Shown: one piece after another, positions 6,895 through 52,598 of the stretch
How positions within the stretch are numbered: position 1 is the stretch's first letter
Layout of the letters: each line of letters opens with the position of its first letter
Assembly (NCBI GenBank): GCA_001898035.1
Contig: MKRX01000002.1
Coordinates: 283,964-347,963, forward strand
Length of the DNA: 64,000 nucleotides
Origin: Armatimonadetes bacterium 55-13
Lineage (GTDB): Bacteria > Armatimonadota > Fimbriimonadia > Fimbriimonadales > Fimbriimonadaceae
Reading direction: 5' to 3'
Program-made: the position numbers and the translations under genes
Notes under the pieces: generated by a model
What the model saw: the letters and a program-made list of their open reading frames with translations, nothing else
What the model was told of the DNA's origin: nothing
The model's database searches: none

Positions 6895-7677
6895 TTAGCG
6901 ATACCCCTGGATGATGGCGGTGACGAGGGTCCCCCATCCATCAGCCAAGACGAAGACAAGGAGCTTGGCGGGAAGGGCGACGACAGTGGGAGGCATCATC
7001 ATCATGCCCATGCTCATGAGAGCGCTGGCGACAATGAGGTCGATGATGAGAAATGGGATGAAGATGTAAAAGCCGATGATGAAAGCCGTCTTCAGTTCGC
7101 TGATGATAAAGGCGGGAATGAGCGTGGTGAGATTGACATCCTTAGCTGACTTCGCGGTCTCGTGTCGCATGTTCATGAACAGCGTCAGGTCTTTCTCATA
7201 CGTGTTCTTGAGCATGAACTCTCGAATTGGCTCTTGGGCGAGTTCGATAGCTTGTTTCTGATCGATCTGGTGAGTTAATAGCGGTTGAAGCGCGCGATCA
7301 TTGATCTTCTGATAGGTTGGACCCATGATAAAGAAGGTCAAGAAGAGGCTAAGTCCGACAACCACCTGATTGGGCGGAATAGTGGGCGTGCCGATGGCCT
7401 GCCGGACAAAACTGAAGATGATCACGATACGCGTGAACGCGGTCGTGAGGATCATGATTGCCGGGGCAAGGCTCAGGATCGTGAGGAGGGCGAGAATCTG
7501 CAGGGACGTGCTGACCTCTTCACCCTTTTTAGGCGCGGCGCCTCCCATGTTCACGGAGATGTTTGGGATGGGCAGCGTGGCATTACCGGCTTGTTGCGCA
7601 AAGGCGGCCACGCCGAAGAGGCAGAGCGCGAGGATCAGGATGACGCGCAGGTTTCGACCTTGGGTAAGAAACTTCAT
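6895..7677 (-). CDS. fliP: Flagellar export gate protein FliP
   Basis: 260 residues. An N-terminal signal-peptide-like segment (LRVILILALCLFGVAAFA) is followed by a short periplasmic stretch and the FliP core with SLAPAIMILTTAFTRI and RQAIGTPTIPPNQV, then FIPFLIIDLIVASALMSMGM, the signature membrane region. It nucleates the export gate. The gene begins six bases after fliO and abuts fliQ. Confidence 0.98.
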   Translation of the reverse strand: MKFLTQGRNLRVILILALCLFGVAAFAQQAGNATLPIPNISVNMGGAAPKKGEEVSTSLQILALLTILSLAPAIMILTTAFTRIVIIFSFVRQAIGTPTIPPNQVVVGLSLFLTFFIMGPTYQKINDRALQPLLTHQIDQKQAIELAQEPIREFMLKNTYEKDLTLFMNMRHETAKSAKDVNLTTLIPAFIISELKTAFIIGFYIFIPFLIIDLIVASALMSMGMMMMPPTVVALPAKLLVFVLADGWGTLVTAIIQGYR

Positions 7678-7683
7678 TTTGGA

Positions 7684-8214
7684 TTAACCGGTCAGCCTGG
7701 AAAGTCGCTCAAGGGCGGTTTCGATGACGGCACTGTTGGCGGCAGCAACGGGAGCAGGCGCAGGATCAAGGGATTCGTCTACTTCGGGAAGCTCTTCGCC
7801 CGGGGCCATGTTGAACATGTCTTCGAAATCGGGCTCGGTTTTGACTTCTGGTTCGGTAACGTCGGCCAGGCAATTCACGCCTTGGGTCGAAACGCTGAGG
7901 AGCAGGGTCTTGCTGCGTGCGCGCACGATGTAGAGCGTGCCTCCAGCAAAGGTGGCGGACTCTTCAATTTTCAAGGAGCTGTTCACACCCGTGACCAGCT
8001 TCTTGTTCATCTTGCCCATCACTTTGGGGAGGACGAACTTGAGCAAGAGCATGACGATACCAAGGGCAAAAGCCATTTGGAGCATGGGCATCACTCCCAG
8101 GCCGCCTTGACCGGCGGGGGTGGTGACGGCATCTCCCTTGGTTCCTAGGACGCCGTCATCGGCCAGAGCGGCTCCGGCCAGGCACAATATGGTCAAAGAC
8201 GCGTGCGCGCGCAC
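7684..8214 (-). CDS. fliO: Flagellar protein FliO
   Basis: 176 residues. The frame is open far into fliN, but GTG 8214 is the likely start: GAGGT lies about 8 bases upstream and the product then begins with a signal peptide (RAHASLTILCLAGAALA). A transmembrane helix (LQMAFALGIVMLLLKFVLP) and a cytoplasmic SLKIEESATFAGGTLYIV domain follow, typical of FliO, which assists FliP assembly. The start lies within 5 bases of the fliN stop, so the two are probably translationally coupled. Confidence 0.9.
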   Translation of the reverse strand: MRAHASLTILCLAGAALADDGVLGTKGDAVTTPAGQGGLGVMPMLQMAFALGIVMLLLKFVLPKVMGKMNKKLVTGVNSSLKIEESATFAGGTLYIVRARSKTLLLSVSTQGVNCLADVTEPEVKTEPDFEDMFNMAPGEELPEVDESLDPAPAPVAAANSAVIETALERLSRLTG

Positions 8215-8215
8215 G

Positions 8216-9124
8216 TTAGGCGACCTCTCCCAGTTTCTGCAGTCTTTCTTGGGGATTGAGGATCTCAGTGAGTCGGACGCCGAAGTTATCTTCGATGACG
8301 ACGACTTCTCCCCGGGCAACCAGTCGGCCATTAACCATGACGTCCACAGGTTCACCAGCGGCCTTGTCGATTTCGACGATCGATCCGGTGCCGAGTTCGA
8401 CGACATCTTTGACGAGCATCTTGACCCGTCCGAGTTCCACGCTGATTTCCAGCGGGATATCCATCAGGAGGTCGAGGCCGTTGTTCTCTTCGGGGCCAGC
8501 GGGGCGGGCTCCGCCAAATCCGCCGGAGGCAGCGTTGACCTGTTGGAAAGGCATGGCGTCTGGCTCTTCCATGGTCACGCCGGTCACGAAGTGAGCGGTC
8601 TCTGAATCCATGAGCCAGATGACGGTGCCGTTCAGGTCATCGCCGGTCATGGCGATTTGAGTCCGAAGAATCTCTTCTGACTTTTGCAGGTTTGGTGGGA
8701 AGCTGAAAATCTGGAATCGGATGCTTAGGCCGCTGGCGACGATGGTTTCGTTCTTGATATTGCCGACGGCAAGGCAGATGCCTTGAACGATGCCTTCGAG
8801 GCTGTTTCGAAGTTCGGCGACCAGGTTCTCATCGATCTCTTGAACGGGCTCAGGAAGAACCAGGTTGGCGAGATCGGTTACCGTCTCCTGCGGGAGCAGC
8901 ACGACTTGGGAGTTCTCCGGCATGTTGGCGAAGGAGAACTGGACGACCATCATCGGTGCGCCGAATTCGGCGTAGAGATCACTTGTCTTCGCGCCCACAG
9001 TGAGGGGAGAAGAGAAGTTGATCGCCTGGCCGCAGGCCTCGCTGACCGACATGGAGGCGGTCTGCCAGATCTGGTTCTGGCTGCTCGCCAGTTTGTTGGT
9101 GACTTCGACAGGAATGTTCGACAT
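8216..9124 (-). CDS. fliY: Flagellar C-ring protein FliY/FliN with CheC-like N-terminus
   Basis: 302 residues, much longer than a plain FliN (about 140). The C-terminal third is the FliN/SpoA domain (MDIPLEISVELGRVKMLVKDV ... ARGEVVVIEDNFGVRLTEI), part of the rotor switch. The N-terminal part resembles CheC/FliY: a LVAELRNSLEGIVQGICLAVGN segment aligns with the CheC phosphatase helix, but the Asn of the E...N pair appears to be Gln, so CheY-P hydrolysis is doubtful. A Gly/Pro linker (about residues 200-215) joins the domains. It lies just after fliM, as expected for C-ring genes. Confidence 0.9.
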   Translation of the reverse strand: MSNIPVEVTNKLASSQNQIWQTASMSVSEACGQAINFSSPLTVGAKTSDLYAEFGAPMMVVQFSFANMPENSQVVLLPQETVTDLANLVLPEPVQEIDENLVAELRNSLEGIVQGICLAVGNIKNETIVASGLSIRFQIFSFPPNLQKSEEILRTQIAMTGDDLNGTVIWLMDSETAHFVTGVTMEEPDAMPFQQVNAASGGFGGARPAGPEENNGLDLLMDIPLEISVELGRVKMLVKDVVELGTGSIVEIDKAAGEPVDVMVNGRLVARGEVVVIEDNFGVRLTEILNPQERLQKLGEVA

Positions 9125-44304: not shown

Positions 44305-45003
44305 TCAATTGGTGCGAACATCTCGCAACCATTTTGCATGGGTGTCTAGGAAGAGCCGATTTCGGCCACCTGAATGCGAGGTCTTTCCCCGTAGCTCGAC
44401 CGGCGTAGTGGGAATCGTTCTTGGGAAGTAAGGATCAACTGCCAGCTCGACGTCTGCTACGCCTTCGGGCATTCCGACTTGAGCGTTATTGGCGGCGCGA
44501 AGGTCCTCAACCGACTGATCAGGCGACTTTCCCCAAAGATTGTCGAGGGGTATCGGATCGTCCAGGTGGTCAAACCGCCAGAGCCAGTAAGTGGTCTGGA
44601 CAGAGTTTGGTTGACTGGACGTGGCCTGTCTTACTTGAACCGCGTTCGCAAAGATTCCTTGTGAACTGGGACAGACCCATATCTGATCGTTCTTTGTGTA
44701 AGGTTGGAGGACGACCGATGCCCAGCCCCCACGAGGGTCTGAGGGCGGCCAGGTGGTCCAAGGTCGGAACCCTCCTGGGAGGCTTGACTTCAAGTCTCGA
44801 CGATCGGGCAAGCGGTCATCGTAGTCGTTTCCGTACATCGCAAACGCCATACCGATTTGGCGGAGGTTGCTTAAGCAAACACTCTTCTTGGCCGCCTCCT
44901 TTGCCTGGCTAAAGACCGGGAAGAGAATCGCCGCCAGAATCGCGATGATCGCGATCACCACGAGGAGTTCGATTAGGGTAAATCCCCGGGCTTTGGGGGT
45001 CAT
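44305..45003 (-). CDS. Type IV pseudopilin-like protein with N-methylation motif (DUF1559-like)
   Basis: 232 residues. Prepilin peptidase motif [20 protein letters not shown] near the N-terminus (cleavage after Gly), then [20 protein letters not shown] and [14 protein letters not shown], the DUF1559/H-X9-DG family found in Armatimonadota and Planctomycetes. The C-terminal H-x9-D is kept ([11 protein letters not shown]) but followed by Thr, not Gly. Secreted and pilus or T2SS related. No pilus genes are adjacent. Confidence 0.9.
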
Positions 45004-45021: not shown

Positions 45022-46524
45022 TTAGTAGTCCATCGCGATGCGTTCGGTATTGACGAGGCTAAACGGGACTTCCAATGCGCTTGGATCGATGACGGCAAAC
45101 GTCTCCTTTCGGCCCTTAGCCGCCAAATAGAGGCTAACCATGCTTTCCAAATTCTCGAGATAGCTGATGGGCAGCAAGAAGAGGAAGCGAGAGTTGGGCA
45201 GTCCTTGTTCCTGTCCGACCAGCCGACGGAGGTGAGTAATGACCGGCTTGCGCTGCTCTCCCAACTTGTCTATAGTCGCCTTCGTGGGAGCGATGAACGC
45301 TTCGTAATTGTTCGGGAACGACTCGCGGAGCACGATTATTCGTTGCAATAGGCTGTGCATCGCTCGGAGAACATCTATGGGAGTGCTCTCAAGTTTCTCA
45401 CCGTTTGGAAGGACGGGGCGTACCTCAGAATGGAGAAACTCCTTAGAAAAGCGCATGCCTTTCGAAAGCAGTTCCCGCTGGACGGGAGTTAATTCCGTGC
45501 TGTCCAAGAGCCATGCGGGGAGAAGCTGTTTGATGACGCTCAAGAAATTGTATTCGGGCAGGACTTCGGCCCTTGAGGCTTCCACGACGATACGCTCTTC
45601 GTTGATATCCAAGTCCGCTTTGTAGTTCTTCACGAACATGTTCCGGAGAGTCGACGCAGGAAGGGACGGCAAGATTCGGCATCCAAGCTCCTTGGGCATG
45701 GAAACCGTGCCGAAGTGCAGGGGTTCGACTTTGCCGCCACCAAAAAAGGTTTTGCAGATGCCTTGAGCGACCACGAAGCTGCCCGATTTGGGTTCGAGAT
45801 ATGACTTTGTGAACGGTTCGACGTCGATATTGAACATCGACCAGCGAGCGGCACAGTCAAACTTCCAGTTGAGCTTTCCGCGCAACTCGTCGTAGCCGAT
45901 CCAGCTCGCCTTGCCGCAGCGTTCGCATTCAATGTGAACCTCAGTTTCATTCGCGGACGCCACATGCGTGCAGTCGATGTACCCGCAAGTGGGGCAGACC
46001 GGCCAGTAGAGCTTTTCTGGATGATAGCCAGCGAACGTGTCTTCCAGATATTTTATTATCGTATCTTTGTTTAAAAGTACTTCTCTCACATATGGCGTGT
46101 ACATGCCACGTGAATAGAGACTGGAAGTGCGAATTAGCGTGGGGTGACAATCAAGCGAAGATAGCCGATTAAGAAACTGATTTTCGAAGTGTTTTGCCCA
46201 GGTTAATTTATCATCGAACGGTGATCGGATATCGCTAATGGGCTTGCCGCAAAATGGCTCAAATTGATCGATGATCGATTGATCTTTGTTAACCGCGACC
46301 CGCAATTGTCGATAATTGAGAGGGTCCATATCATCGTCAAACAATAAGAAATGGACGATGTGTCCTTCATTTCGAAGGGCTTTTACTAATTCATCGGCGA
46401 CGAGGTATTCCCGAAGGTTCCTCTCGTCGCCGAGAAATGCGCAGGTGATGCCAGCGGCTATCGTTACTGATGCGCGATCCTTAAACCGTTCGACCCAGTC
46501 GTTTCCAAAGACCTGATTGCTCAC
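45022..46524 (-). CDS. Class I lysyl-tRNA synthetase-like protein lacking HIGH and KMSKS motifs
   Basis: 500 residues, close to class I LysRS. DRASVTIAAGITCAFLGD aligns with the 'VxxGITPSGxxHIGN' region but has FLGD (30-33) in place of HIGH; LREYLVADELVKALRN continues the family pattern. Four zinc-ligand Cys remain (C177, C180, C200, C203). The expected K-M-S-K-S segment reads SMPKELGCRI (275-284). It is therefore probably not an aminoacylating enzyme; regulatory, amino-acid-binding or tRNA-mimic recognition roles are open. AT-richer patches occur (46040-46100). Cannot be excluded that it charges a non-standard substrate. Confidence 0.78.
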   Translation of the reverse strand: MSNQVFGNDWVERFKDRASVTIAAGITCAFLGDERNLREYLVADELVKALRNEGHIVHFLLFDDDMDPLNYRQLRVAVNKDQSIIDQFEPFCGKPISDIRSPFDDKLTWAKHFENQFLNRLSSLDCHPTLIRTSSLYSRGMYTPYVREVLLNKDTIIKYLEDTFAGYHPEKLYWPVCPTCGYIDCTHVASANETEVHIECERCGKASWIGYDELRGKLNWKFDCAARWSMFNIDVEPFTKSYLEPKSGSFVVAQGICKTFFGGGKVEPLHFGTVSMPKELGCRILPSLPASTLRNMFVKNYKADLDINEERIVVEASRAEVLPEYNFLSVIKQLLPAWLLDSTELTPVQRELLSKGMRFSKEFLHSEVRPVLPNGEKLESTPIDVLRAMHSLLQRIIVLRESFPNNYEAFIAPTKATIDKLGEQRKPVITHLRRLVGQEQGLPNSRFLFLLPISYLENLESMVSLYLAAKGRKETFAVIDPSALEVPFSLVNTERIAMDY

Positions 46525-46611: not shown

Positions 46612-49296
46612 CTAGGCCGCTTTTCGTACCGGGATGTCGGTGACTTCGGCCAGAAGACCGCGTTTATTACAGGCGTTAATAAATGCATCGGCCATGGTCG
46701 GATCGAATTGTGTACCCATTCCCGCTCGGATCTCTCCAATTGCTACGGAGAAGTCCATCCCTTTTCGATAGGGTCTATCGGTAGTCATTGCGCTAAATGC
46801 GTCGGCTACTGCCAATAGTCTCCCCATAAAGGGAATTTGTTCCCCAGCAAGTTGATCAGGATAACCCTGTCCGTCCCAGCGTTCATGGTGAGAACGAACC
46901 GCATCAATAATCGACTCCATTCCCGGGATTCCACCGACGATGAGCTCTCCCAATCGAGGGTGGCGCTTCATGATCTCGTATTCTTCCGGAGTAAGTCGTC
47001 CTGGCTTGCGAAGGATATCGTCTGGTACGCCGATCTTGCCAACGTCGTGAAGGAGGCCGCCGATGCGAATGGTTCGCATCGTCTCCTCGGACAAACCGAG
47101 TTCCTCGGCCGTCCAAAGCGCGTACTCGGTCACATCTTCGGAGTGCTTTCGCGTGTAGCGGTCTTTGTTGTCGACGGCGGTAATCAGAGCGTCCAGGACT
47201 TCGAAGGACGCCTCGGCTCTTAACTCGCGATTTGCGCGCTGAGAATCACTCGTCCAGGCTATTCCGGTGTCCGTGTTCTTGGCGGAGTATAGATTCGAGT
47301 CCGCGATGGTCAGTAGTTCGTGTCGGCTTTCCCCGTCGTCCGGGAAGCACGCAATGCCGAAGCTGAGAGAAATCGGAATCGTTCGTTCGTCGGTGGATCG
47401 GCAGAAGCCTTCGCTTTGCAAACGAGTCCGGATTCCGGTTGCCATGACGTGAGCTTTTTCTGCGGATGCTCCGGGGATGATGATGATGAATTCGTCGCCA
47501 CCGTAGCGGGCCGCCAGCGCGCCATCGCCAACTTCTTCAGTCAATACCTTGGCAACGGTCTTGAGAACTTGGTCACCGATGACGTGTCCATAAGTGTCGT
47601 TGAACAGTTTGAAGTTATTGAGGTCCACCATCATGATCGCCAGCGATTGTTCCTCTTGCTTGGCGGCCTTGAACATCCGCTCAAGACGCTGGTGAACGGC
47701 TCGGTGATTCAGAAGGTTGGTGACCGAATCTCGGTCGGCGGCGGCCAACGCGTTCGAGTGCTCGCGAGCATGTTCGAGCGCGGTACCGATTTCGAGTCCA
47801 ATACTTTCCAGCAGATCTTCATCCGCATGGCTGAACGTATTGTTTTCTCGAAGCACGCCGATCATGCCGATTTGCCGGTGTTGCCATGTTAAGGGCGCAC
47901 GGAGGCAGTTCCAGGTCTCATCGGAGGTAGATCTGAGGATAAGCGACTCTACGGTTGGTCGCAGAGGCATATCTTCCAGTTGCAATCGGAAGGGAATATC
48001 TGCCGGGAGTCCTTCGGCCGTATGGAGTTTGACCTTCATCGGTTGTCCAGATTCGCCCTCTTCATTGAGCCACACCACTACGCCGCCGGCATTCAAGGCG
48101 ATCTTGGAGTGGCGAAGCGACTCGCTCAGCACTTCTTCGAATTTGAGCGTATTGTTGACGGCTCGAGTGAGCTTTTGAATGGCGGTGAGCTGGCTCGTTC
48201 GCTGTTCGACCAGGCTTTCAAGATTTTCATTGAGAGCCGACATCTGTCGGGAGAGTGATACGTTCTCCGCGAGCATGAAGACTTGACGTAGCATCACGAG
48301 CGTAAAGACGATGATGGCTTCCGTATACACCGAGGTCGAAATCTGTCGATCCCGGATGAAGTCGTCTACGATGACGATTCCGAGGGCGACGATAACCAAG
48401 ATGTAGGGAGCAACCACTCGAACCATGTTCGCCGCGTTTCGCAGGCGTTGGTTGATATGTCGCTGCTGATGAGCCGAGTCTGACTTGGGCCACCAGTGTG
48501 CGGTAATGGCGCCGAATCCAATCGCCAAGAAGCCAAACGACCAACCCCAATCCGCCCAGGAACCCGTCTCGTAGGTCTCCTTGAGGTTCATGTACTGAAA
48601 GTTGCCGTCGGCCAAAGAAATCATGGCTAAGCCCGTTGCGATGAAGGCAATGGAACGTCGCAAGGAACTGGATCGTGCACAGCCCTTCAGGATGACCGTG
48701 GCCATGAAGATGGCGGCAAAGTCTCCGATGGGGTAGGCGGCGCTAATGATCTTATTCAAGAGCGAATCGTCGCTTCCCACCCACATCTTCTCAATCAGGA
48801 AGTACCACATCAGGATTGCCAAACTGGCAACGGTGATGGTGCTATCCAGGAAGAGGCGTGCCCGGCTGGCCACGTGTTGGCTGTATAGAAGCATACAGAC
48901 GCCCACGAGCAAGAACGGATATGAACCCAGATAACCGACATCGGGCCAACCTGGGAACGGCACCTCTTGACCCATGAAGGTCTCGATCACCGTCCAAGTG
49001 GTTTGCCCCGCCGTAAACGAGAGACACCCAAGTCCAATCAGCCACCAAGCCGCCTTTTGCGATTTAGTCTCGTGCTTAGGACTTCGAGCGTAGACGAAGC
49101 AGGCAAAGCTCGCCCAAAGCGGAGCGAGAATTTGGTAAATATTCTGAAATCCGTGATAGAAGTCTTTGCTTCCGGGCCTCACGGTTAGCATAAAGACGAA
49201 CAGAGCCATGTATCCCAGTGACATGACCAGCGTAATCTTCTGCAGTCGCGAGCACTTCTTCCAGAAGGCGTAACTTCGTTTAATCCCTCGACCCAT
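46612..49296 (-). CDS. Membrane GAF-GGDEF-HD-GYP c-di-GMP turnover sensor
   Basis: 894 residues. About nine membrane segments at 20-340, a coiled-coil (about 350-390), a GAF-like domain (about 390-530), GGDEF with RYGGDEF (about residue 597), and HD-GYP with HDVGKIG (about 747) and HHERWDGQGYP (about 797). Both enzymatic motifs are intact, so diguanylate cyclase and phosphodiesterase activity are both possible, with the membrane part as sensor. It would set the motile versus sessile balance. Start ATG 49296. Confidence 0.95.
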   Translation of the reverse strand: MGRGIKRSYAFWKKCSRLQKITLVMSLGYMALFVFMLTVRPGSKDFYHGFQNIYQILAPLWASFACFVYARSPKHETKSQKAAWWLIGLGCLSFTAGQTTWTVIETFMGQEVPFPGWPDVGYLGSYPFLLVGVCMLLYSQHVASRARLFLDSTITVASLAILMWYFLIEKMWVGSDDSLLNKIISAAYPIGDFAAIFMATVILKGCARSSSLRRSIAFIATGLAMISLADGNFQYMNLKETYETGSWADWGWSFGFLAIGFGAITAHWWPKSDSAHQQRHINQRLRNAANMVRVVAPYILVIVALGIVIVDDFIRDRQISTSVYTEAIIVFTLVMLRQVFMLAENVSLSRQMSALNENLESLVEQRTSQLTAIQKLTRAVNNTLKFEEVLSESLRHSKIALNAGGVVVWLNEEGESGQPMKVKLHTAEGLPADIPFRLQLEDMPLRPTVESLILRSTSDETWNCLRAPLTWQHRQIGMIGVLRENNTFSHADEDLLESIGLEIGTALEHAREHSNALAAADRDSVTNLLNHRAVHQRLERMFKAAKQEEQSLAIMMVDLNNFKLFNDTYGHVIGDQVLKTVAKVLTEEVGDGALAARYGGDEFIIIIPGASAEKAHVMATGIRTRLQSEGFCRSTDERTIPISLSFGIACFPDDGESRHELLTIADSNLYSAKNTDTGIAWTSDSQRANRELRAEASFEVLDALITAVDNKDRYTRKHSEDVTEYALWTAEELGLSEETMRTIRIGGLLHDVGKIGVPDDILRKPGRLTPEEYEIMKRHPRLGELIVGGIPGMESIIDAVRSHHERWDGQGYPDQLAGEQIPFMGRLLAVADAFSAMTTDRPYRKGMDFSVAIGEIRAGMGTQFDPTMADAFINACNKRGLLAEVTDIPVRKAA

Positions 49297-49435: not shown

Positions 49436-50293
49436 ATGGGAGTCGTTTTTGGATTAGCGGCGGCAATCTGCTGGGGTGTGGGGGACTTTGTCATCACTAC
49501 TCTCGCACGATATATGGGCAGCACGAAAAGCTTGCTGTACATTCAAATATTCAGCTTGCTCTCTTGGTTAGTGTTGATTCCAGTATTTCCACACGACTCC
49601 AAGGGTGGCCCGAATATCTGGGCCATCGCCGTTGCCGCGGGCGTCTTTCACGTCGGCGGTCTAGTCTTGACTTACAAAGCCTTCGAGATCGGAACTCTAT
49701 CTCTGGTCTCCCCTATTGCGTCCAGTTTTGCCATTGTGACAGCATTCCTGACCCTTGTCTTTGGTCCCCAGCCGCCAGCAATGGCATTGGCAGGAACGGT
49801 GCTACTGGTGGCAGGTGTGGCCGTCGTAAGTCGCTCAACGGGTTCGGAAGGGCCGGTCTCCATCAAGGGAGTCCCTCAAGCGGTGGGCAGCGCCATCGCG
49901 TTTGGCGTGATGTTTTGGATCATCGACTTCTACGTTCAGAAACCGCTTGGTTACGTATATCCCTTGATCGTCCTGAAGATCATGGCCTCTTCCTACGCCT
50001 TTCTTATGGCGGGGCTGGCCAGGCGCCGGGGTGTTGAGGAAGAGGTTCAGCCAACCAAGCGAAACGTTTGGGGATTGGCAGTATTGGCGGCGCTTCTGGA
50101 TTCGGGAGCGTGGGTGGCCTGGTTGTTCGGGAACAGGGAGGCGAATACGGCGGTCGTAACAGCGTTAGCCTCCCTGTTTAGTGCGGTGACCGTGGTAATG
50201 GCATGGATCTTTCTCAAAGAACGGCTGAACCGATTCCAGTGGGTTGGCGTTGCGGTCATCCTCGCCGGGATCTTGTTGGTCAGCCTTCCATGA
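49436..50293 (+). CDS. EamA/DMT family transporter
   Basis: 285 residues, ten hydrophobic segments in two repeats (GVVFGLAAAICWGVGDFVI and GVPQAVGSAIAFGVMFWII). Drug/metabolite transporter fold in the inner membrane; substrate unknown. Its stop overlaps the following ALDH-like gene's start as ATGA, so the two are one unit. Confidence 0.92.
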   Translation: MGVVFGLAAAICWGVGDFVITTLARYMGSTKSLLYIQIFSLLSWLVLIPVFPHDSKGGPNIWAIAVAAGVFHVGGLVLTYKAFEIGTLSLVSPIASSFAIVTAFLTLVFGPQPPAMALAGTVLLVAGVAVVSRSTGSEGPVSIKGVPQAVGSAIAFGVMFWIIDFYVQKPLGYVYPLIVLKIMASSYAFLMAGLARRRGVEEEVQPTKRNVWGLAVLAALLDSGAWVAWLFGNREANTAVVTALASLFSAVTVVMAWIFLKERLNRFQWVGVAVILAGILLVSLP

Positions 50294-51657
50294 ATGAACT
50301 TAGAATCGACAAACCGAGCTTAATTTGGGGACAGCCATCTGGCGAAGGGGAGCCTATATCCACGGTCTCTCCTCTAGGGACTACCGTCACAACGTTCAAG
50401 GGACTCTCCGAGGAGGAGTTGGATGCGTTGTTTCAACAACGGCACCCGCGCGAGGAATGTAATGTAGAAGCGTTTGCGGAAGCACTCGCAGATCGATTGA
50501 AGCAGCGTAGAGTCGAATTTGCCGATGCGATGCGGATCGGCACGGGCTTTAACCGGGGCGACTGCGGAGAAATGGTCGATGGCGCGGTTGAACTCCTGCG
50601 GACGTGGGACAATGCAACATCCCCACTGTGCCAACCGATTTCCTATCCCGGACGTGTGATGGAATTGCACCGAGCGCCTTGGGGGACGGTGAGCGTGATT
50701 TTGCCCCAGAACGCTTTTCTGCTTATCGGTCTTACGAGTCTCCTATCGGCGCTTTCCACCGGAAACCGCATCGTGCTTCGTGCGCCTTCGTCAGAGGCTC
50801 AATCGGCGGTTTTGCTTGGTGAAGCCTTAAAGGAAGTCGGCCTTAGTTCAGACTTGTATAGCCTTGTGCTTTGCGATGCTCGGGACTTTATTCGGATGGC
50901 GATTTCTTCCCCAATCCATCCCCTGATTCACCTGCTGGGTAGCTCTCGACATGGAATCGACCTGGTGGCTCGCGGTCTAGAAGAAGGATGCGCTACATTG
51001 GTCGATGGCGACGGCAACACTTGGGTCTATGTAGACAAAGATTGGGAGCCAAGGGAAGCGGCGAATTTGCTTTGGCAAGGCGCGATTCGGTATTCGGGAC
51101 AGACGTGTACCTCGATTAACGGCGCAGTGATTCATCCAGATGTTTACCCTCAGGTGCGGGATCACCTCAGGCAGTTCACACAATCGACAAAGTTTGGCTT
51201 TGGAGACGAGCCGGTGGGCCCCCTTTTCAGTGAAGGACAGGCCAAGGCCGCCGAGGAGCGCATTTGCGAGAGCAAGGGAGCGATGGGAAGAGTCGGCAAT
51301 AGTCGAGGCAATCTGGTTCCGCCAACTTTGGTGGAAGATCCGGATTGGGATTCTCGATTGGTCACGGAAGGTGTTTTCGCCCCCGCGCTTTGGATCCGAA
51401 GCGGGGACTTTAAAGCATTTGCCGATAAGTGGCCCACGAACAAATACCCTCTTTCGGTCGGCGTTTGTTCGCATCGACTAGATGGTGCTCACATCCTTTC
51501 CCAGCTTAGCGGGGCCGCCCGCGTAATGTTAAATGGCGATCCAAGTCTGGAGCACGTTCGGGAGCCATGGGGCGGTTATCCGGCCAGCGGAAACAACCCG
51601 GTGAGTCCTTGGATCGATAAGTACACCCGGGTCGTTCAACTGGATCGTCCCAGTTAG
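50290..51657 (+). CDS. Aldehyde dehydrogenase superfamily protein
   Basis: 455 residues from ATG 50290. The nucleophile is present in YSGQTCTSINGAVIHP, and the GSSRHG and P-R-A-PWGTVSVILPQN segments follow the ALDH order. The usual LELGG block that supplies the general base Glu reads LVDGDG, so deacylation by hydrolysis may differ; a CoA- or transfer-type acylation is possible. Substrate unknown. A frame extending upstream overlaps the EamA gene and is not used. Confidence 0.85.
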   Translation: MNELRIDKPSLIWGQPSGEGEPISTVSPLGTTVTTFKGLSEEELDALFQQRHPREECNVEAFAEALADRLKQRRVEFADAMRIGTGFNRGDCGEMVDGAVELLRTWDNATSPLCQPISYPGRVMELHRAPWGTVSVILPQNAFLLIGLTSLLSALSTGNRIVLRAPSSEAQSAVLLGEALKEVGLSSDLYSLVLCDARDFIRMAISSPIHPLIHLLGSSRHGIDLVARGLEEGCATLVDGDGNTWVYVDKDWEPREAANLLWQGAIRYSGQTCTSINGAVIHPDVYPQVRDHLRQFTQSTKFGFGDEPVGPLFSEGQAKAAEERICESKGAMGRVGNSRGNLVPPTLVEDPDWDSRLVTEGVFAPALWIRSGDFKAFADKWPTNKYPLSVGVCSHRLDGAHILSQLSGAARVMLNGDPSLEHVREPWGGYPASGNNPVSPWIDKYTRVVQLDRPS

Positions 51658-52067
51658 CTTCGGCTTAGGACAATGCCGTTTTTGACGGACAAAGATTGGC
51701 CGTCCGCGGAAAGGGTTAAGGATTCGGGTTGCTTTTCTACGGCGGAGTCCGGAGCTTCTCCATCGAATTCCTCCGCAACGAGCTTGAGTTTATCTCCCTC
51801 AAGGATCACCTTTCCTTTGGCGGTATGGCTCTCCGTTCGCGTTTGACCCGCATCGGTAAAGCTGACGGTTCCGGTGGCAATGAACTTGCCGACTTCGTCG
51901 ATGGTGATTTGGTAGCTCTTGTTATCCTTCTTTCCCGTCCAGTCTCCGACGACGGATGCAAAGGGGCCAGCTGGCTTAGGGGGTGCGGGCTCGACGGTCT
52001 TAGAGGGGCCACATCCTAAGGTTAAACCCAAGGAGAGCACCGCGAGGATCGTTGGCAGGTACCTCAT
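51654..52067 (-). CDS. Small lipoprotein, hypothetical
   Basis: About 137 residues from ATG 52067. Signal sequence and lipobox (LSLGLTLGC, Cys around residue 19), then a Pro-rich linker and a small beta-rich domain (GDWTGKKDNKSYQITIDEVGKF) resembling lipocalin-like or DUF-type folds. Outer- or inner-membrane lipoprotein. Converges with the ALDH-like gene (4-base overlap). Confidence 0.8.
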   Translation of the reverse strand: MRYLPTILAVLSLGLTLGCGPSKTVEPAPPKPAGPFASVVGDWTGKKDNKSYQITIDEVGKFIATGTVSFTDAGQTRTESHTAKGKVILEGDKLKLVAEEFDGEAPDSAVEKQPESLTLSADGQSLSVKNGIVLSRS

Positions 52068-52205
52068 GGAGCTATTTTGGCAGGTTTTGAAAAGGGGGCT
52101 TCCTGGTCCCAGACTGTGTAGGCTGCCGGGGCCCAATCTTGCGCATATCGGCGCATTACCTACACCCTGTCTAATTAGGCTCAAATCAACTCCGATAACG
52201 AAAGC

Positions 52206-52598
52206 ATGAACGAAGCACGGGAGGAGGAATTGAAGGTGATCGATGACAGTCACTCCACCGTGTCGGAGCTACCCGTCTTCCAACGGGCGCAACTGGAGAC
52301 GACATCGGGAGGAGATCGACAGTTTGCCGATCAAGTACTTCGCGTGTTTGTCTCGGAGATTCCCAGCAGAATTCGCTCGATTCGTCGAGCGGTAGAGTCC
52401 GGGGAGTACCGTAACCTTCGCTACCATGCAAGGGCGGCGAAGTGTGGGAGCCAAGCGGTAGGCGCCATCCGGTTGGCAGAAGTTTGTTCCGAACTTGAGG
52501 AACGAGCTCAAGGCGGCGACGTTCTACCGGTCATTAGCTCTCTCGTGAAAGAAGCCCGAAGGTTTCGGACGCACGTGAATCAGCAAAACGTCTTCTAA
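52206..52598 (+). CDS. Hpt domain phosphotransfer protein
   Basis: 130 residues. The phospho-acceptor His is H74 in YHARAAKCGSQAVGAIRLAE, matching H-x-L-K-G-S-x-x-x-x-G-A though the Leu/Lys are changed. FVSEIPSRIRSIRRAVESGE is the preceding Hpt helix. It would relay phosphate between response regulators; no partner kinase is in the window. A GTGTAGG/CCTACAC stem (about 52115-52173) lies just upstream. Confidence 0.85.
   Translation: MNEAREEELKVIDDSHSTVSELPVFQRAQLETTSGGDRQFADQVLRVFVSEIPSRIRSIRRAVESGEYRNLRYHARAAKCGSQAVGAIRLAEVCSELEERAQGGDVLPVISSLVKEARRFRTHVNQQNVF

Follow-up and report, generated by a model that had tools for sequence, protein, structure and literature searches.

Aminoacyl-tRNA synthetases repurposed in other lineages have given rise to new chemistry, as in cyclodipeptides, mycothiol and AcmF. 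LysU, PoxA and LysX are derivatives of class II lysyl-tRNA synthetase (LysRS). They are the only LysRS derivatives listed in a review of duplicated synthetases (PMC9437257), and where LysRS1 and LysRS2 are known to coexist, the proteins are treated as two LysRS enzymes (PMC1475646). AcmF (ascamycin) is AlaRS-like, lacks most ATP-binding residues and uses Ala-tRNA in a biosynthetic cluster, and SbzA (SB-203207) is IleRS-like and takes the aminoacyl group from Ile-tRNA; cyclodipeptide synthases combine a class I synthetase fold with an aminoacyl-tRNA substrate and a covalent aminoacyl-Ser (PMC12945691).

The 64,000-nucleotide stretch of Armatimonadetes bacterium 55-13 DNA considered here (MKRX01000002.1, positions 283,964 to 347,963; the window) encodes a protein that an earlier note, made from the sequence, described as a class I LysRS (LysRS-I)-like pseudo-synthetase with a possible new role. 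This description is strongly supported by the presence of the organism's own class II LysRS, by phylogeny and by conserved neighbors, and the protein is very probably a neofunctionalized, non-activating LysRS-I paralogue, recruited into a small-molecule or signaling module. It represents a class I LysRS lineage from which the ATP site has been removed and which is locked to an aldehyde-dehydrogenase-like (ALDH-like) enzyme and a c-di-GMP sensor. A literature search found no report of such an ATP-site-less LysRS-I family, and no paper combining Armatimonad- with lysyl-tRNA synthetase.

Catalytic domain, zinc site and ATP-site motifs

The gene and the sites discussed in this section are as follows:

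45022..46524, (-) strand: pseudo class I lysyl-tRNA synthetase (pseudo-LysRS), 500 aa, assigned by PF01921, 1irx and orthologues
46435..46443, (-) strand: residues 28–30, CAF, replacing the invariant Pro-Ser-Gly; Cys28 is invariant in the six orthologues (alignment)
46417..46428, (-) strand: "HIGH" position, residues 33–36, DERN, where genuine LysRS-I has HxGN/HIGT (alignment)
45916..45996, (-) strand: zinc cysteines C177, C180, C200 and C203, invariant in the six orthologues
45853..45867, (-) strand: residues 220–224, WKFDC, with Trp220, Lys221 and Asp223 kept and a Trp replaced by Cys224 in all orthologues (alignment)
45799..45810, (-) strand: residues 239–242, TKSY, replacing GKD(H/L), the third ATP-contact motif (alignment)
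45679..45705, (-) strand: KMSKS loop position, residues 274–282, shortened, motif absent (alignment)

The reading frame is open throughout and starts with GTG, with GAGG just 5' of the start. Residues 17–272 match Pfam PF01921 (E 1.1e-41; 143 bits, cut-off 27), and the score against the NCBIfam LysRS-I equivalog TIGR00467, 128.3 bits, falls below the cut-off of 147.55. Among solved chains, Pyrococcus LysRS-I (1irx) is the only convincing relative, with E 4e-17 for the single sequence and E 1e-29 for a six-row orthologue profile. Judged by its sequence the protein is thus a LysRS-I homologue, yet by the defining motifs it is no LysRS-I.

We compared the motifs in an alignment of the six pseudo-LysRS orthologues with 13 motif-retaining LysRS-I proteins. 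The "HIGH" stretch PSGxxHxG reads CA(F/Y)LGDER in the orthologues, all P-S-G-x-x-H-x-G residues being replaced, and C28, A29, F/Y30, D33 and R35 are uniform in 6/6; the His and Gly of HxG are lost in 6/6 and retained in 13/13 genuine LysRS-I. The loss of HIGH noted earlier therefore stands, whereas its assignment to FLGD was out of register: D33-E34-R35-N36 is the segment that lies opposite HxGN in 1irx and HIGT/HLGN in other LysRS-I, and FLGD precedes this position with a one-residue overlap. KMSKS is absent, as had also been noted, the loop being ~11 residues shorter and K/S/S giving way to variable residues. A third motif, which the earlier note did not mention, is lost as well: in GKD(H), G239 and D241 are replaced, so that GxD reads xx(S/A). 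We take the GKD position to be a ribose contact, as GxDQ is elsewhere among class I synthetases.

Many other LysRS-I invariants are retained, namely G25, E39, D64, D67, R72, G93, P95, P102, Y137, G140 and Y167, and further K217-L218-W220-K221, D223, R227-W228 and E236. The assignment of residues as ATP- or lysine-contacting follows established knowledge on class I synthetases. The active-site region has gained two new invariant cysteines, at the former Pro28 and at the former Trp224. All four zinc ligands remain in all six orthologues, in line with the original observation; such cysteines are a feature of the archaeal-type LysRS-I subgroup. Taken together, pseudo-LysRS has lost all three ATP-contact motifs and has kept its zinc site, the remaining catalytic-domain fold and the part of the active site that does not face ATP.

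Overall length is likewise kept, as claimed, but we could not identify the last 220 residues as a LysRS anticodon domain. Residues 283–500 contain a GQxxG element colinear with LysRS-I, and the conserved GPR is changed to GLP; in profile comparison, the hhalign probability for this region is below 2, so tRNA binding by pseudo-LysRS cannot be assumed. The structure model, whose input was the window and selected loci sequences only, has a mean pLDDT of 57.7, with ~75 in the catalytic domain and poor values past residue 270, and this narrow input explains why the C-terminal half is modeled poorly.

A fold search with the model returned 1irx first (Z 25.7, 263 residues, 2.7 Å), followed by BshC (4wbd; Z 15.6) and ArgRS (Z 14.7), which tie within the stated margin; MshC was also among the matches. 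The position of BshC directly after 1irx, and the presence of MshC, would suit a BshC-like ligase that couples a small acceptor with lysine, or with a different amino acid, through non-canonical chemistry of the kind used to make low-molecular-weight thiols. We consider such a ligase unlikely, since the fold is common to all class I synthetases, as the tie with ArgRS illustrates, since the BshC family gave no match to pseudo-LysRS in Pfam/NCBIfam at E up to 1, and since a non-canonical ATP site would be required. The cyclodipeptide synthase (CDPS) family gave no match in these two databases either, at E up to 1.

Orthologues, selection and the housekeeping synthetase

Five full-length orthologues (genomes G092, G101, G108, G119 and G120; 46–51% identity) come from other families of the phylum, and in G002, of the same genus as the window genome, the pseudo-LysRS N-terminus lies at a contig edge. 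Two other phylum matches, in G141 and G106, retain HIGH/KMSKS-type motifs (KLSSS in G141). In a tree with LysRS-I, a check proposed at the outset, the six pseudo-LysRS proteins form one clade with 100/100 support, on a long stem that makes its placement among LysRS-I uncertain; these sequences indicate that the lineage arose once. For G119 against G120, the sole close pair (the remaining pairs are saturated or unreliable), dN/dS is 0.108/1.61, or ~0.07, which indicates that purifying selection acts on pseudo-LysRS.

The loss of motifs itself, and the low GC of the 5' third of the gene, could be taken as marks of a chance ORF or of a pseudogene in decay. Several families have full-length orthologues, the replacements are identical in six species and dN/dS is ~0.07; the motif loss is therefore not chance decay, and we regard both explanations as already refuted by conservation and dN/dS. 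The GC content of window 46024–46524, the first third of the gene, is 45%, against 56% for the window, and the remainder of the gene is near average. AT-rich patches had been read as a hint of acquisition; recent acquisition is not indicated by the 45% GC part, because another member of the genus shows the same arrangement and several of the phylum's families have orthologues.

An origin as a phage or plasmid gene was also considered and rejected. A phage search with pseudo-LysRS gave no match, and plasmid matches are 25–28% identical and carry intact LysRS-I motifs. Nothing was found in a viral-contig scan with the six-orthologue profile, and the same kind of scan with a mixed alignment returned only proteins bearing HIGH and KMSKS. 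A single-sequence scan of genome contigs, which is weak as a negative owing to its over-specific peptide patterns, gave one match, a genuine alphaproteobacterial LysRS-I.

A genuine lysS, which the earlier note had suggested looking for, is present in the window genome as a class II LysRS. Class II LysRS scores above cut-off in the pseudo-LysRS carriers G000, G002, G092, G101 and G119 and is absent from G141 and G106, the genomes with intact LysRS-I; the assemblies of G001, G108 and G120 are incomplete, so these three carry little weight in this test. That pseudo-LysRS is the sole LysRS of the cell is ruled out by the class II enzyme in the same genome. The retained fold and zinc site would also fit an active, divergent lysyl-tRNA synthetase in which substitute residues take over the function of HIGH and KMSKS, but the joint alteration of all three ATP motifs, the shorter loop and the presence of a class II LysRS make this scarcely credible.

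A conserved gene module

Three genes upstream of or divergent from pseudo-LysRS define the surrounding locus in the window:

46612..49296, (-) strand: membrane GGDEF/HD-GYP sensor, directly upstream of pseudo-LysRS with an 87-bp gap (Pfam GGDEF, HD_5)
49436..50293, (+) strand: EamA-family transporter, divergent (PF00892), also found in two genus members and G092
50290..51657, (+) strand: ALDH-like enzyme (PF00171, 1.5e-43)

The start of the ALDH-like gene overlaps the EamA stop (ATGA). At every complete locus an orthologous membrane GGDEF/HD-GYP gene lies upstream of pseudo-LysRS on the same strand and the ALDH-like gene is divergent; gene order in G002 and G001 matches up to the contig ends, the start of the ALDH-like gene in G002 falling at such an end, and the G120 locus is split across two contigs. 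The GGDEF/HD-GYP neighbor had been thought possibly fortuitous, and its position at all complete loci contradicts this. The check for conserved neighbors that the earlier note proposed likewise comes out in favor of a new role. The pseudopilin gene (window 44305–45003; N-terminal methylation motif, DUF1559-like) adjoins pseudo-LysRS in the window genome only, and here the suspicion of chance appears justified.

An orthologue of the ALDH-like gene occurs in 7/291 phylum genomes. Six of these seven also carry pseudo-LysRS, corresponding to six of the seven pseudo-LysRS genomes (hypergeometric p 6e-11, a value that counts genomes as independent and so overstates the significance); the exception is G001, a fragmentary genus member. 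An NNMT-family methyltransferase is found in 5/291 phylum genomes, all of them pseudo-LysRS carriers, and a porin-like protein, by a weak match in a search of the eight module genomes, in the same five. The window genome's own genus has neither. The EamA transporter, an MFS transporter in G108 and the porin-like genes are accessory. The module thus comprises a GGDEF/HD-GYP sensor, pseudo-LysRS and a divergent ALDH-like enzyme, to which an NNMT-family methyltransferase, a transporter and a porin-like protein may be added. Among the conserved neighbors we recognized no further enzyme that activates amino acids.

Several loci carry further genes. A small lipoprotein-like ORF follows the ALDH-like gene in the window (51654–52253), and the ORF in the same place in G001 (L050:2627–3025) is 34% identical to it, so within the genus this ORF may belong to the cluster. 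Just past the ALDH-like gene of G092 lie an S-adenosylmethionine decarboxylase-like gene (L012:6093–6647) and an aldo/keto reductase gene (7364–8572), both absent from the other loci examined. G101 has a second NNMT-family methyltransferase away from the cluster (L077:6202–6993), with no other cluster genes found nearby.

The head-to-tail arrangement with the sensor gene at all complete loci, and the loss of ATP motifs combined with retention of the pocket side, which suits a binding protein, raise the possibility that pseudo-LysRS is itself a ligand sensor. It would bind lysine, a related amine or uncharged or charged tRNA and control the GGDEF/HD-GYP protein, coupling the level of an amino acid or product to c-di-GMP, with the ALDH genes as regulated output. 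Synthetase-like proteins are known to act as sensors in the cases of HisZ and Gcn2. Other observations make this role slightly less likely than the lysyl transfer proposed below. The N-terminal region of the GGDEF sensor occurs in 28/291 phylum genomes, most of them without pseudo-LysRS, and the GGDEF gene beside pseudo-LysRS in G108 (L023:4604–5386) is an in-frame fusion of membrane region and HD-GYP from which the GGDEF part is deleted, yet pseudo-LysRS stays conserved there. This loss is either a real deletion or an assembly error. On another G108 contig a diverged, intact sensor copy (L076:1341–4175; 74–79% DNA identity in matching pieces) adjoins the methyltransferase gene. The wider occurrence of the sensor and the GGDEF loss in G108 make the enzymes, ALDH and methyltransferase, the tighter partners of pseudo-LysRS.

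Proposed function and comparison with known systems

We tentatively propose, by analogy with other repurposed synthetases, that pseudo-LysRS performs an ATP-independent step on lysine or a pre-activated lysyl group and so feeds the ALDH-like enzyme. The lysyl donor would most plausibly be Lys-tRNA charged by the class II LysRS, and the invariant Cys28, a candidate nucleophile, could provide a route of lysyl transfer. The ALDH-like enzyme would then process the product, followed in most lineages by the methyltransferase, and the module as a whole may make and export a small molecule under c-di-GMP-linked control. Several observations count against lysyl transfer: some pocket residues are replaced (Y242 for H/L, C224 for W), the C-terminal region has no significant match to the LysRS-I anticodon domain, the window genome's genus does without methyltransferase and porin, and the structure model is of moderate quality.

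A more specific version of the lysyl-transfer proposal, which we regard as a long shot, is a tRNA-dependent reductive pathway in which a lysyl group from Lys-tRNA, bound as a thioester to Cys28, would pass to the ALDH-fold enzyme and be reduced there to an amino-aldehyde for N-methylation and export under c-di-GMP control. Such a pathway would resemble glutamyl-tRNA reductase, with a synthetase and an aldehyde dehydrogenase as its components. In any event the pseudo-LysRS module is a defined gene set, the product and logic of which are directly testable.

With LysRS1 (lysK; 1irx), pseudo-LysRS shares the catalytic-domain fold, the zinc cysteines, its size and ~24% catalytic-domain identity; it differs in that HIGH, GxD and KMSKS are lost, the C-terminal domain is unrecognizable and a class II LysRS coexists with it. 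BshC and MshC show a synthetase fold that couples an amino acid in small-molecule synthesis, as may hold for pseudo-LysRS, but MshC is related to CysRS and depends on ATP, and BshC has no sequence match to pseudo-LysRS. Cyclodipeptide synthases (AlbC, Rv2275) likewise have a class I synthetase-like fold, and aminoacyl-tRNA replaces ATP activation; they are Tyr/TrpRS-like, a separate lineage, and use a Ser nucleophile, whereas Cys28 of pseudo-LysRS is a candidate nucleophile only. AcmF and SbzA are, like pseudo-LysRS, synthetase paralogues in metabolic gene clusters, and AcmF is also depleted of ATP-binding residues; AcmF is a class II protein, SbzA keeps HYGH and AMSKA, and neither derives from LysRS-I. 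Pseudo-LysRS resembles both in its setting, a paralogue encoded in a conserved cluster of enzyme genes while an intact synthetase serves the housekeeping role, and, if the proposed lysyl transfer holds, would work like AcmF and SbzA while lying outside those families.
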